Assembly: GCA_902605645.1 (NCBI GenBank)
Contig: CACLDE010000002.1
Location: forward strand, 62,001-126,000
DNA from: an uncultured Pelagibacteraceae bacterium
GTDB lineage: Bacteria > Pseudomonadota > Alphaproteobacteria > Pelagibacterales > Pelagibacteraceae
Direction of reading: 5' to 3'
DNA length: 64,000 nucleotides
In this document: positions 27,111 through 61,199 of the stretch, one piece after another
Position numbering within the stretch: the stretch's first letter is position 1
Layout: each line of letters begins with the position of its first letter
Translations under genes and position numbers: made by a program
The notes under the pieces: model-generated
The model's input: the letters and a program-made list of their open reading frames with translations, nothing else
Database searches by the model: none
What the model was told of the DNA's origin: nothing

Positions 27111-29153
27111 ATGAATTTTAAATATAGACCAGAAATTGACGGATTACGAGCTCTAGCAGTAATTTCAGTAATTCTATTTCACGCTGGAATACCTTTATTT
27201 AAAGGTGGTTTTGTTGGGGTAGATATCTTTTTTGTAATAAGCGGTTATCTTATCACATCTATAATTTTGAAAGATATAGATAAAAATAATTTTAAGATTT
27301 TAAAATTTTACGAAAGAAGAGCTAGACGAATTTTACCTGCATTAATTATAATAGTAATTTTCTCTTCAATTTTTTCTTTAATTTTATTTAATTCAGAGGA
27401 TCTAATTTTTTTCTTTAAAAGCACCATTTCTTCCCTTACATTCTGGTCAAACTTACAGTTTCATAATGAAGCTGATTATTTTGCAAAAACAAGTGAGTTT
27501 AAGCCGTTATTGCATACCTGGAGTTTATCGATTGAGGAACAATTTTACATTATTTTTCCTTTACTGGTAATTCTAATATTAAGTTTAAATAAAAAGCTTT
27601 TACTAATAACAACAATTTTAATTTTCTTTTTAAGCTTAATGTTTGCACAATGGTCTGGAAATTTATCTAGAAACTTTCCATTTTTCGATGCTGATTTGAA
27701 TTTTTTATCTAAATCAGAATATTCAACGTTTTTTATGCCTTTTGGAAGAATATGGGAAATTGCTCTTGGATCTATCTGCGCTTTAATTTTACGAAAGAAT
27801 ATTTTGAAAAAAAATCAATTTTCAAATCTAATTTCTTTGACAGGTTTTATACTTATTATAATTTCAATTTTTTACTTGTCTGAAAATTTCCCTTTTCCCT
27901 CATTTTATACTTTGATTCCTGCGTTAGGCACAGCTCTAATAATATTATTTACTTTTGAAAGTGATGTAATCTCAAAATTATTGAGAATAAAAATCCTCGT
28001 TTTTCTTGGACTTATTTCATATAGTTTATATCTTTTTCACTTTCCTATTTTTACTTTTTTCAAACACAGCAACATAGAAATTAATTACCTTATACTTTCT
28101 TTCTTAATATTGACTACTTTTATTTTGTCTTTTCTTAATTGGAAATTTATTGAAAAACCTTTTAGATCTAAAAAAATAAATTTGAATAAATTTATTTATT
28201 TTATTTCTGCATCATATTTGATTATTTTTCTTACATCTCTCTATGCCTTAAATTTTAAAATACCTAATAAATTATATGTTGAAGATTTATCAACTAATCT
28301 TCAAAAATCACTAGTATCTAAAATTCAAAATAAAGAATGTTTGGACACAATTAGAGTGCAAGAGGATTTTAACCAAAAAGGTCTTTGTTATTTAGGTGAT
28401 AAAAATCAAAAAAAAACTAACCTCATAATATTTGGCGATAGTCATACGCTACCTTTTTATCAGCTATTAAACGATTATTTCAAAAGATCAAATAAAAAAG
28501 CTTTATTAACGGGGTATTCAGGCTGCCCTCCTTTGATTGGTGTTTACTCCATTAGAAGTGATCAAATGAATAAAAACTGCAAAGAATTGAATAATAAAAT
28601 TTTTGAATTTGCAAAAAATAATAATATAAAAAATATTTTACTTATATCTCGCTGGACTTACTACACTGGAGAGGAACTTCCAAATGGTGAGTTTAATGCA
28701 ATTAATAAATCATTAAATTATAATACTAATGTAAAAACTTCAAAAATAAATTTTAAAAAAGCAGTAGAAGAAACATTTAAAAAATATGGGTCGATTAATA
28801 TAAATGTATTTGTTATAGAGCAAGCTCCTTTTCATTATTTCACACCCTCTCAAGCTTATTTAAGGTCCTACGATATTGATAAAAATTATTTTAAAAATAG
28901 ACTAAACTCATATTCAATAAAATATGATGAATTTCAAAATAATCAAAATTTTAGTAGATCTATTTTATCATCCAATGCATCAAAATATGAAAATATAAAT
29001 TTTTTAGGAATTAGTGATATATTTTGTTTAAATATAGTAAAAGTTTGTAAAATAGGAGATCACGATAAATCTTTTTATAGAGATAAAAACCACCTAAACC
29101 AATATGGTGCGGATCTTTTAAAGGAAAGAATATTAGAAAATATTGATAAATAA
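27111..29153 (+). CDS. Acyltransferase-3 / SGNH O-acyltransferase (OafA/YrhL-like)
   Basis: The 680 residues combine an N-terminal integral-membrane acyltransferase-3 domain of about ten helices (YRPEIDGLRALAVISVILFHAG, FVGVDIFFVISGYLI) with a C-terminal extracytoplasmic SGNH hydrolase-like domain (FGDSHTLPF near residue 443, DKNHLNQYGADLL near the end). Such two-domain proteins O-acetylate lipopolysaccharide O-antigen, peptidoglycan or other glycans. The following glycosyltransferase supports a surface-glycan role. The acceptor is unknown. It is 2 bp from lepA. Confidence 0.9.
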   Translation: MNFKYRPEIDGLRALAVISVILFHAGIPLFKGGFVGVDIFFVISGYLITSIILKDIDKNNFKILKFYERRARRILPALIIIVIFSSIFSLILFNSEDLIFFFKSTISSLTFWSNLQFHNEADYFAKTSEFKPLLHTWSLSIEEQFYIIFPLLVILILSLNKKLLLITTILIFFLSLMFAQWSGNLSRNFPFFDADLNFLSKSEYSTFFMPFGRIWEIALGSICALILRKNILKKNQFSNLISLTGFILIIISIFYLSENFPFPSFYTLIPALGTALIILFTFESDVISKLLRIKILVFLGLISYSLYLFHFPIFTFFKHSNIEINYLILSFLILTTFILSFLNWKFIEKPFRSKKINLNKFIYFISASYLIIFLTSLYALNFKIPNKLYVEDLSTNLQKSLVSKIQNKECLDTIRVQEDFNQKGLCYLGDKNQKKTNLIIFGDSHTLPFYQLLNDYFKRSNKKALLTGYSGCPPLIGVYSIRSDQMNKNCKELNNKIFEFAKNNNIKNILLISRWTYYTGEELPNGEFNAINKSLNYNTNVKTSKINFKKAVEETFKKYGSININVFVIEQAPFHYFTPSQAYLRSYDIDKNYFKNRLNSYSIKYDEFQNNQNFSRSILSSNASKYENINFLGISDIFCLNIVKVCKIGDHDKSFYRDKNHLNQYGADLLKERILENIDK

Positions 29154-29157
29154 TTTT

Positions 29158-30180
29158 ATGAGTGAACATAACCTTATAATTATTACTAATGAAAAAATAT
29201 CCAATAAAAATGAAAGTTATTATTGTGATAACATTGACATCAAAATTACAGCCCAAAAATTACAAAGCTTTTATGACGTTACTTTAGTGGGTAGAAAATC
29301 TAAAAGTGAGCGCGCGCACAGATTGATACTTAATGATATTTCAACATTTAATAATTTTTTTTCTTTTCTAATAAATTTAAAAAAATTCAAGATTAATCCC
29401 AGTACAAAATTTTTGGTAATTTCGTTGACACCATTTTCTTTTTGCATAACTGTTATACTTTGGTTAATAAATAAAAGAGTTTTCTTATATTTCAGAAGTG
29501 ATGGGTTTAAAGAATACGAAAAGATACTTGGTTTTCTTGGTCCCTTAATTTACGGCTGTATGTTTTCAATATCTACAAAAATTTCCACTCTCATTAGTTG
29601 TCAAAAATATATATTAAGAAAAAAAATAGGTTTTTTGGTAGAACCTTCACAATTAAATAACAAATGGTTTGAAAACACCTCTACCCCATCCTTAAAAAAT
29701 ATAAATCTGCTTTATGTCGGTAGAATTAAAATTGAAAAAGGAATATTTGATTTAATAGAGTTTATTGAAAATAAAGAGAATATAAAATTAACTATAGTTG
29801 GAGCAAGTGATAATAAAAAAAACGAAATTAGGAGAGAAAATATAGATGTTTTTAGCATTGAAACAGAGGAAAAAAGATTAATAGAGCATTACGACAAATG
29901 CAATATATTCGTTCTTCCATCCTTTACAGAAGGATATCCTCAGGTTTTAATTGAAGCTTTAGCGAGGTTAAGACCAGTGATCATTTTCAAAGAAATTCAA
30001 CATGTGGTTGGAAAATTTAATGGAATTTTTGTTGCAGAAAGAAATTATTCCAGTCTTGAAGAAAAAATAAATTATATAAAAAAAAATTATAGATCTATTC
30101 AAGCAGACATGAAAAAAAATCAATTACCCACGAATAATAAATTTATTGAGCAAATAAAAGAAATTATTTCACAAAATTAA
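29158..30180 (+). CDS. Glycosyltransferase family 4-like
   Basis: This ~340-residue GT-B protein has a degenerate N-terminal half and a recognisable C-terminal donor domain: [20 protein letters not shown], a short linker and the acidic motif [26 protein letters not shown] 29158 is chosen over an in-frame TTG at 29143 that would overlap the acyltransferase stop. It probably adds a sugar to the same surface glycan that the preceding gene acylates. Donor and linkage are unknown. Confidence 0.82.
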
Positions 30181-30219: not shown

Positions 30220-30309
30220 GGAGAGGTGGCCGAGTGGTTGAAGGCGCACGCTTGGAAAGCGTGTAAACGGGAAACCGTTTCGAGGGTTCGAATCCCTCTC
30301 TCTCCGCCA
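30220..30309 (+). tRNA. tRNA-Ser (anticodon GGA)
   Basis: This 90-nt class II tRNA has acceptor GGAGAGG paired with TCTCTCC (one G-T pair), the serine-type long variable arm and anticodon loop TTGGAAA with GGA. The D-loop GG and T-loop TTCGAAT are canonical. The discriminator is G and CCA is encoded. It lies 39 bp after the glycosyltransferase stop and 51 bp before an 18-codon ORF. Confidence 0.97.
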
Positions 30310-58735: not shown

Positions 58736-59989
58736 ATGCGTAAACTTATTATAGATGGGAAAAAAATCTTATCTGGGAGTATTAAAATATCTGGTTCAAA
58801 AAACTCTGCTCTTCCAATTCTTGCTGCCTCGATATTAAACAAGGAAACAATAATAAAAAATATACCTTATGTTAACGATATTTTGACTATGTTAAATTTA
58901 CTTAAATTTATTGGATTGAAATATAAATTATTAAAAAAAAAAAATTCAGTCGTAGTCACTAATATAGATAAAAAAATTAACACCGTTGCACCTTACAAAC
59001 TTGTTAAAACAATGAGGGCTGGAGTTTTAGTGCTAGGCCCATTGCTTGCAAGATATGGCAATGCAAAAGTTTCACTTCCAGGCGGATGCGCAATAGGTAC
59101 TAGACCTGTAGACTTACATTTATTTGCTTTAAAAAAACTTGGTGCAAAAATTAAAATTAAAAATGGGTATATATTTGCTACTGCCCCTAAAGGCCTGAGA
59201 GGGTCAAGTTTTAGACTTCCATCTATATCAGTCGGGGCGACTGAAAATGTAATTTTAGCTGCTACTCATGCTGAAGGCGTCACTGTAATTGACAATTGTG
59301 CAGTTGAACCAGAAATAAAAGATTTAATTAAATTCATACAAAAATTAGGGGTAAAAATAAAAATTGATGGTAGAAAAATAACTATAGCAGGATCAATAAA
59401 AGAAAAAAAAATCACTCATAAAATAATTTGTGATAGAATTGAGCTCGGTACCTATTTAATTGGTGGTGCTTTGACTGCAAAAAAACTCAGACTTAAAAAT
59501 ATAGACCCAAAATTAATAAAAACAGAAATTTTAATTTTAAAAAAGATGGGTATTAAAATGAAAGTTGAAAAAAATTTTATAGAAATTTACAAGTCTAGAA
59601 ACATAAAAAATATTAATATAAAAACTGCCCCTTACCCGGGCTTTCCCACAGATTTACAGGCTCAAATTATGATTTTAATGACTCAAGCTAAAGGGCTTTC
59701 AAAAATTAAAGAAAATATTTTTGAAAACAGGTTTATGCATGTCCCAGAGTTAAAAAGGATGGGAGCTAAAATAGAAATACGTAATAATACTGCAAATATT
59801 TCTGGGCCATCTTTTTTGACGGGCGCAGAAGTAATGGCGACTGATTTAAGAGCATCGGTAAGCCTAGTTTTAGCTGCTCTTATTGCTGATAAAAGAACTA
59901 AAATAAATAGGATTTATCATCTTGATAGAGGATATCAAGACCTTGAAAAAAAATTAATTAAATGCAAAGCTCAAATTAAAAGAGTTTAG
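58736..59989 (+). CDS. murA: UDP-N-acetylglucosamine 1-carboxyvinyltransferase
   Basis: MurA carries out the first committed step of peptidoglycan synthesis. The 417 residues have ISGSKNSALPILAASIL, the catalytic (fosfomycin-target) cysteine in LPGGCAIGTRPVDLH at ~119, and PYPGFPTDLQAQ and ATDLRASVSLVLAALIA. The cysteine is present, so it should be fosfomycin-sensitive at the target level. It is followed by the DUF2948 gene, a common alphaproteobacterial pairing. Confidence 0.97.
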   Translation: MRKLIIDGKKILSGSIKISGSKNSALPILAASILNKETIIKNIPYVNDILTMLNLLKFIGLKYKLLKKKNSVVVTNIDKKINTVAPYKLVKTMRAGVLVLGPLLARYGNAKVSLPGGCAIGTRPVDLHLFALKKLGAKIKIKNGYIFATAPKGLRGSSFRLPSISVGATENVILAATHAEGVTVIDNCAVEPEIKDLIKFIQKLGVKIKIDGRKITIAGSIKEKKITHKIICDRIELGTYLIGGALTAKKLRLKNIDPKLIKTEILILKKMGIKMKVEKNFIEIYKSRNIKNINIKTAPYPGFPTDLQAQIMILMTQAKGLSKIKENIFENRFMHVPELKRMGAKIEIRNNTANISGPSFLTGAEVMATDLRASVSLVLAALIADKRTKINRIYHLDRGYQDLEKKLIKCKAQIKRV

Positions 59990-59990
59990 G

Positions 59991-60434
59991 GTGAAAGTTC
60001 AAAATTTAAAACTTATAGCTAGAACTATTGAAGATCTGAGAGTCATTTCTGCACACTTACAAGACTCAATAGTGAAAACATCCGATATTGCAAATTTAAA
60101 AAAAAATAGAATATTTTTAATGCAATTAAATAGGTTTATGTGGGAAGATGTTGAAAAAGGAGTTTTTAGAAAAAACAAAAGAATAAGAACGGTAATTAAA
60201 TTTGAAAATATTCTAAAAGTTGCTTCAAAAAATGTGGATCAAAATAAAAATGACAGATTTTTGGACTTTTTAGCTATTGAAACGATCAAAATGCCTGATA
60301 AAAATTATGAAATGAAATTAATATTTTCTGGGGACGTAGTCTTGAAACTTTTAGCCGAGGCTATTGAGGTAACTTTGGATGATCAAGGCTCACCTTGGGA
60401 AAGTAAAAATATACCTGAACATAAAGATTTATAA
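59991..60434 (+). CDS. DUF2948 family protein
   Basis: The 147 residues match the alphaproteobacterial DUF2948 family usually found beside murA (LKLIARTIEDLRVISAHLQDSIVK, FLMQLNRFMWEDVE, ending GSPWESKNIPEH). Start is GTG 59991, 1 bp after the murA stop. The function is unknown; the conserved linkage suggests a link to cell envelope or central metabolism. Confidence 0.88.
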   Translation: MKVQNLKLIARTIEDLRVISAHLQDSIVKTSDIANLKKNRIFLMQLNRFMWEDVEKGVFRKNKRIRTVIKFENILKVASKNVDQNKNDRFLDFLAIETIKMPDKNYEMKLIFSGDVVLKLLAEAIEVTLDDQGSPWESKNIPEHKDL

Positions 60435-60460: not shown

Positions 60461-60676
60461 TTGACCAAGCAAGAAACTTTAGAGTTTAAGGGAAAAGTGA
60501 CTGAATTATTACCCAATGCAATGTTTAGAGTAAAACTTGAAAATAATCATGAAATTCTTGCTCACACGGCTGGAAAATTAAGAAAGAATAGAATAAGAGT
60601 GCTTGCCGGGGATAATGTGATGGTTGAAATGACTCCATATGATCTTACTAAAGGAAGAATAACTTTTAGATTTTAG
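60461..60676 (+). CDS. infA: Translation initiation factor IF-1
   Basis: IF-1 occupies the ribosomal A site during initiation. The 71 residues show an OB fold ([63 protein letters not shown]). The start is TTG with a very strong AGGAGGAGG at 60445-60453, 7 nt upstream. The UAG stop (60674-60676) shares its last G with the first base of the following tRNA-Phe gene, so mature tRNA production would cut through the stop codon. Confidence 0.95.
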
Positions 60677-60750
60677 GCCTTGTAGCTCAGTAGTAGAGCA
60701 GTACCCTGAAAAGGTATGTGTCGTTTGTGCGATTCAAACCAAGGCCACCA
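60676..60750 (+). tRNA. tRNA-Phe (anticodon GAA) with atypical elbow
   Basis: All four stems pair: acceptor GGCCTTG/CAAGGCC, D-stem GCTC/GAGC, anticodon stem GTACC/GGTAT around CTGAAAA, and T-stem GTTTG/CAAAC. The D-loop AGTAGTA is one base short and lacks the GG doublet. The T-loop is TGCGATT instead of TTCGATT, so position 55 (60729) is G. CCA is encoded and followed at once by a second CCA (60748-60753). Both other tRNAs in the window have canonical loops. It is probably functional but unusual. Confidence 0.93.
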
Positions 60751-60755
60751 CCAAA

Positions 60756-61199
60756 ATGAATAAAAAAGATATTTATAAAATTTTTAAACCTCAACTTACA
60801 CCAAAAAAAATGTTGGAGCTTGGTGTATTCGGTGGTTCTTATTTTATTGATGGTGACATTAAAGAGTTTCCAATCGAATGGTTTAAAAAAGCTAAAATAA
60901 GTAAACAGTTCGATGTTAACTTAAACCGATTCAAAATCGTATCTGGATTATCCAGAGAGGAGTGGATAGATAAAGGCTGGATCTTTAAGCAAGACCCTTT
61001 AGGTTGGTTTCAATGGTATTGCAGATTTAAAAATGGGAGAAGGATACCTGAAATGGATTTAATTCAAATTAAAAGATGGAAAGCTTTCGGTGATAGACAT
61101 GCACCAGCAGTTAAAAAAAATTGTGAGGAAGGTGACCTTCAGTGCAGAAAAAGACAAAGACAGGCTTTATTGCAGTGGGCATATAATCCTTTTTTTTGA
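60756..61199 (+). CDS. Conserved hypothetical protein, 147 aa
   Basis: The ATG lies 5 nt after the tRNA-Phe CCA with no Shine-Dalgarno. The protein is soluble, rich in Trp and aromatic residues, and has several motif-like segments (YFIDGDIKEFPIEWFKKAKIS, LGWFQWYCRFKNGRR, KRWKAFGDRHAPAVKKNC, RQRQALLQWAYNPFF). The WYCRFKNGRR and RQALLQWAYNP blocks look like strongly conserved cores, but I do not recognise the family with certainty. It would be read as a nearly leaderless mRNA after tRNA processing. Confidence 0.8.
   Translation: MNKKDIYKIFKPQLTPKKMLELGVFGGSYFIDGDIKEFPIEWFKKAKISKQFDVNLNRFKIVSGLSREEWIDKGWIFKQDPLGWFQWYCRFKNGRRIPEMDLIQIKRWKAFGDRHAPAVKKNCEEGDLQCRKRQRQALLQWAYNPFF

Follow-up and report, generated by a model that had tools for sequence, protein, structure and literature searches.

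An infA stop codon that shares its last base with a tRNA-Phe gene in a clade of SAR11 bacteria

In Escherichia coli, the polycistronic secG-leuU transcript is reportedly processed by RNase P, as described by Mohanty and Kushner in 2008. The two genes are separated by 14 nt in strain MG1655. In Alphaproteobacteria and other bacteria, the gene for tRNA-Sec is nested in or overlaps selB, and processing of the tRNA at such selB-selC loci has been proposed to yield a non-stop mRNA, with tRNA and protein as alternative products (Mukai, 2021; excerpts of PMC8124441). In human mitochondria, the in-frame stop of MT-ND2 is made with flanking TRNW sequence, and MT-ND1 with flanking tRNA fragments is also counted as encoding a stop (excerpts of PMC9674279). 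Here, the junction of infA and tRNA-Phe is described in the window, by which we mean the whole stretch of 64,000 nt of Pelagibacteraceae DNA that was analyzed. The features at this locus are as follows.

58736 to 59989, plus strand: murA, co-directional and upstream of infA
59991 to 60434, plus strand: DUF2948 gene, an open reading frame (ORF) between murA and infA
60461 to 60676, plus strand: infA (IF-1), 71 codons with a UUG start; Pfam eIF-1a, E value 4.1e-26
60674 to 60676, plus strand: infA stop codon UAG, whose G is base 1 of tRNA-Phe
60676 to 60750, plus strand: tRNA-Phe(GAA), with CCA encoded at 60748-60750
60756 to 61199, plus strand: ORF of 147 aa, starting 5 nt past the encoded CCA of tRNA-Phe

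The infA gene overlaps the 5′ end of tRNA-Phe on the same strand by a single base. This geometry, noted in the preliminary description, is borne out by the ORF, two tRNA predictions, the acceptor stem and the junctions of 54 genomes. ARAGORN placed tRNA-Phe(GAA) at 60676-60750, including the encoded CCA, and Rfam placed it at 60676-60747 with a score of 65.2 bits. Base 1 of the tRNA must be G60676, as set by pairing of the acceptor stem (GGCCTTG/CAAGGCC), so that exactly one base is held in common with infA. In isolation, the tRNA sequence folded better than 199 of 200 of its own shuffles (z −3.5). At a spacing of −1 (negative values denote shared bases and positive values the nucleotides between the genes), the infA stop codon must be TAG, since this is the only stop codon with a final G. 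No residue of the IF-1 protein is encoded by the tRNA, which contributes no more than base 3 of the stop codon. A strong Shine-Dalgarno sequence (aggaggagg) lies immediately 5′ of the infA start, and murA, the DUF2948 gene, infA and tRNA-Phe are all co-directional on the plus strand and closely spaced. In a 98%-complete congener (G159), tRNA-Phe was found once among 28 tRNAs, and the gene is apparently single-copy.

The start codon of infA in the window (60461-60463) is UUG, as it is in all 61 distinct sequences with the overlap and, as aligned, in 82 of 87 other sequences; at one locus from the second family of the order (L021), it is ATG. The long-kept weak start of an initiation-factor gene could reflect feedback control of infA. 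The tRNA-Phe of the window has a 7-nt D-loop (AGTAGTA) and a T-loop (TGCGATT) with G instead of U55, a base that is near-universal in tRNA T-loops (conventional tRNA position numbering). Among 17 distinct tRNA-Phe sequences, the 7-nt D-loop occurred with G at position 55 in 8 and an 8-nt D-loop with GG occurred with U in 9, with no exceptions. This covariation suggests that the 18-55 contact has been swapped. Further downstream, the message of the 147-aa ORF, for which a Pfam search gave no match, would be nearly leaderless once the 3′ end of tRNA-Phe is processed.

The −1/TAG junction was read directly in 54 genomes of the genus of the window (in one of them, G042, the contig ends inside the tRNA). 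Eight other genomes of the genus have a gap, of +8 nt three times (G139, G057 and G098) and of +85, +947, +1003, +1414 and +2748 nt. The preliminary description had named loss of the overlap in close relatives as an observation that would refute its interpretation, and this has come about in part: of the 62 genomes whose infA and tRNA-Phe ends were both read, 8 lack the overlap. Three further genomes (G143, G113 and G099) have only one of infA and tRNA-Phe in the stretch examined. A query made up of the infA tail and the tRNA had matches in 155 of the 169 genomes of the genus, and there was no net indel in 124 of the 128 listed matches whose single alignment spans both parts. Among the four exceptions, one (G024, L018) has a 1-nt difference elsewhere and a junction that reads −1, and the other three read +8. 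Conservation across many assemblies rules out chance or assembly error as the source of the overlap.

A scan with a pattern for infA tails near a tRNA with GTAGCTCAG gave at least 119 stretches; the scan detects only this motif and gaps of up to about 22 nt, and misses wider gaps in other SAR11 genera. Among the matches listed, 79 of 80 belong to Pelagibacteraceae, Pelagibacterales or Pelagibacter, and the exception (L103) was rejected as a chance match. These matches place the window in SAR11. Reading the junctions gave 177 rows, 71 of them at −1, duplicates included; a tmRNA locus (L031) was omitted, and L124, which sits at a locus end, does not pass the upstream filter. The loci L106 and L146 stop 50-59 nt past the infA stop and contain no tRNA according to ARAGORN. 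At the other SAR11 loci from this short-gap scan, the distance from infA to the tRNA is +1 to +8 nt and the stops are mostly TAA. None of the 10 loci read from the second family has a tRNA within 300 nt of infA; tRNA-Phe lies further downstream in 9 of the 10, and in L021 its distance from infA is roughly 1 kb.

In a tree of MurA and DUF2948 sequences, every −1 sequence falls in one part of the tree. Inside this clade are also the +8 group, a locus with infA and tRNA-Phe 1414 nt apart (L362) and one with no tRNA-Phe in the stretch examined (L366). By parsimony, the history of the overlap can be read, though not proved, as one gain and three losses, with the tree rooted on an arbitrary non-overlap tip, sequences from the other family left out, some nodes weak and a node support of 0.55 at the base of the −1 clade. 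The tree holds 118 of 213 loci (103 distinct) and an earlier one held 101 of 193 (90 distinct), the remainder being without enough MurA; 7 of the 20 added loci were unplaced, 4 of which have tRNA-Phe separated from infA.

Overlaps of this type are also present elsewhere in the genus. In a survey of tRNA spacing that used unannotated ORFs 60 aa or longer, a same-strand upstream ORF was found to enter the tRNA at 3 of the 28 tRNAs of G159 (Phe, −1; Ser(GGA), −1; Glu, −22) and at 2 of 19 in the window's own assembly (Phe, −1; Trp, −2). The TAG stop of tuf (EF-Tu) uses A1 and G2 of tRNA-Trp, a spacing of −2, in 7 of 57 loci (L278 from the window's own genome, on C21, and L338, L339 and L341-L344). 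The other 50 have TAA at +3 to +8; 2 of 59 loci (L336 and L337) yielded no row. The recJ frame, read in L202, L246-L275 and L345-L357, enters tRNA-Glu(UUC) by 22 nt in 36 of 44 loci, with a UAG stop in the D-arm, and part of the RecJ protein is encoded by tRNA-Glu sequence. The remaining loci are at −1 with TAG (2), end at 0 (4), are at +9 (1) or have a broken frame (1). This sample comprises 43 of the 44 matching genomes (G013, a partial match, is not in it) and G159; the recJ/tRNA-Glu query gave no tRNA-Glu match in the window's own assembly. In G159 (L203), a 340-aa ORF that we take to be glycosyltransferase-like ends in a TAG that shares base 1 of tRNA-Ser(GGA), at −1. Its counterpart in the window, an ORF at 29143-30180, lies 39 nt from tRNA-Ser (30220-30309). 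The infA, tuf, recJ and glycosyltransferase-like cases indicate that stop codons crept up to or into tRNA genes several times in the genus. The tRNA overlap is not special to infA.

These observations bear on the control link that the preliminary description had suggested. A dedicated switch to keep IF-1 synthesis and tRNA-Phe maturation in balance would be in keeping with the long conservation of the overlap in the genus and with the role of both products in translation, and the same idea has been proposed for selB-selC (excerpts of PMC8124441). Arguing against it are the three losses that parsimony gives within the clade, the absence of the overlap from other SAR11 loci, where the stop is intact, and the same kind of overlap at unrelated genes (tuf, recJ and the glycosyltransferase-like gene). 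Such a switch is most improbable, and the control link is not borne out. The description of IF-1 synthesis and tRNA maturation as mutually exclusive was also too strong: a transcript could be translated many times, with normal termination at UAG, before it is cut.

The reading that we prefer, to which a probability of roughly 0.6 is assigned, is that the overlap is a product of compaction inherited by one SAR11 clade, and that one transcript serves first as mRNA and then as tRNA precursor. The spacer in the run of murA, DUF2948 gene, infA and tRNA-Phe would have shrunk until base 1 of the tRNA doubled as base 3 of the infA stop. On the uncut transcript, ribosomes would terminate normally at the infA UAG; a later RNase P cut would free tRNA-Phe. 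If this cut falls at 60675/60676, the infA mRNA is predicted from the sequence to end in UA. The non-stop message put forward in the preliminary description is therefore sound provided that infA and tRNA-Phe are co-transcribed, as a cut before G60676 leaves ...UUUUA with no stop codon. Ribosomes still on the cut mRNA would reach its non-stop end and be released by tmRNA and SmpB, and the new 3′ end would be exposed to exonucleases. Co-transcription, the order of events and rescue are the parts of this scheme that we infer.

Genes for RNase P RNA, tmRNA and SmpB are present in the group. Of 25 genomes, 21 had a match for RNase P RNA, which exceeded the cut-off in 20, and tmRNA was present in 33 of 41, including all 14 of the most complete; both were found in the window's own genome. 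SmpB was found in 22 of 25 genomes, with no match in the window's own assembly, which is 72% complete. Rescue by ArfB was considered and rejected. At most two RF-1-domain matches per genome were present in 25 genomes, and their frames of 330-375 aa point to release factors, with no ArfB-sized protein among them; one RF-1-domain frame of 5795 aa, in G032, is an artefact of how frames were counted.

The UA end that cleavage would give is also the right one for completion of the stop codon in the manner of mitochondria, a route known from human mitochondrial mRNAs located directly next to tRNAs (excerpts of PMC9674279). The cut end would gain A residues to form UAA, and the infA mRNA would remain translatable. 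This is very improbable in SAR11, and three observations speak against it. A PolyA_pol-type nucleotidyltransferase was found in 20 of 25 genomes, as a single copy in 19 and, in G009, as a frame broken into two pieces, and none was found in the other 5. The one enzyme of this type that was examined scores best as CCA-adding, under the cut-offs of both the CCA and the PcnB models, which is weak counter-evidence. Addition of A residues would also provide no full rescue for recJ, whose cut message loses 7 codons besides the stop.

The scheme of a shared transcript depends on where transcription of tRNA-Phe begins. No promoter could fit between the two genes; the tRNA is either cut from infA transcripts or transcribed from a promoter inside infA. 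Transcription mainly from a promoter in the 3′ part of infA, by which most infA messages would not be a source of tRNA and the conflict would be small, is possible though doubtful. Two features in the infA tail were considered.

60624 to 60652, plus strand: candidate tRNA promoter inside infA, weak (TTGAAA, 17 nt, ACTAAA)
60648 to 60669, plus strand: possible 7-bp hairpin (CTAAAGG/CTTTTAG) shortly before the tRNA, in the tail of infA

The hairpin gives no ground for a claim; the region folds no better than shuffles (z −0.72), and the protein sequence dictates several of its bases. The candidate promoter is matched by codon usage to some degree. For this comparison, removal of duplicates from 193 IF-1 loci left 172 distinct ones. 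GTT stands at codon 55 in 53 of the 61 distinct overlap sequences, GAA at codon 56 in 59 and AAA at codon 64 in 59. Codons 55-71 are slightly less diverse synonymously than codons for the same residues elsewhere (permutation p 0.0086, for an interval picked post hoc), an effect that is absent from the 87 other sequences (p 0.69); a gene-wide test for an interval of 17 codons gave p 0.16. The second hexamer is a poor −10 element, and a scan for the sigma-70 consensus listed 4 sites across the region, where 2.6 were expected, and the infA tail contained none of them.

The copies of tRNA-Phe that are separated from infA show that a promoter can serve this tRNA. An upstream element, TRGAAAG-N14/15-TRTARA (loci L213-L218), precedes 5 of 7 such copies in its strict form, 15-29 nt before the tRNA, and 6 of 7 in a looser pattern. 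The chance of the strict form is at most 0.0005 per 100-nt stretch, as estimated with single-base shuffles for a pattern that was written after seeing the sequences. The element is missing from the infA tail of the window and from the 100 nt before its tRNA-Phe, and the strict form is absent before all 28 tRNAs of G159. That the overlapped tRNA-Phe is without the element of the freed copies fits read-through from infA, though a different promoter could serve it. Transcription start sites of SAR11 are said, in excerpts of PMC5069720, to be in its Dataset S2.

Under the preferred reading of a compaction product and a shared transcript, the overlap shows the reach of streamlining: the end of translation and the cut by RNase P would depend on shared bases at a number of core genes of ocean bacteria. 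At stake is whether non-stop messages for IF-1, EF-Tu and RecJ are routine and can be tolerated by a free-living bacterium, and what share of the load on tmRNA they would account for. The recJ/tRNA-Glu junction provides a sharper test case than infA, since its cut message loses 7 codons as well as the stop. That the tRNA-supplied stops of SAR11 (infA, tuf, recJ and others) define a class of mRNAs whose stop exists only on the uncut precursor is a tentative and rather unlikely generalization; what most deserves follow-up is the wider pattern of tRNA-supplied stop codons in this streamlined genus.

In searches on SAR11 and on streamlining, no title or abstract listed pointed to a stop/tRNA overlap, and selB-selC was the sole bacterial case recognized from titles and abstracts on such overlaps. 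As in infA, the protein ORF of selB-selC overlaps a tRNA in the same direction. Unlike infA, which shares one base, the whole or half of the tRNA is inside the selB ORF, and the two genes are a functionally matched pair. The recJ/tRNA-Glu overlap resembles the partial selB-selC overlap of Dyella and Luteibacter. Analogous to the human mitochondrial mRNAs punctuated by tRNAs, excision of the tRNA is predicted to set the 3′ end of infA mRNA and to leave its stop incomplete. In contrast to mitochondria, where the stop is completed by polyadenylation, SAR11 infA has a full UAG on the uncut transcript, and tmRNA is present with no poly(A) polymerase identified. In E. coli secG-leuU, a protein gene likewise lies directly upstream of a tRNA gene, but the 14-nt gap means that the stop survives the cut. 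The SAR11 cases differ from these known systems in that the overlap is minimal, the UAG is completed by base 1 or bases 1-2 of the tRNA, and several genes are involved.
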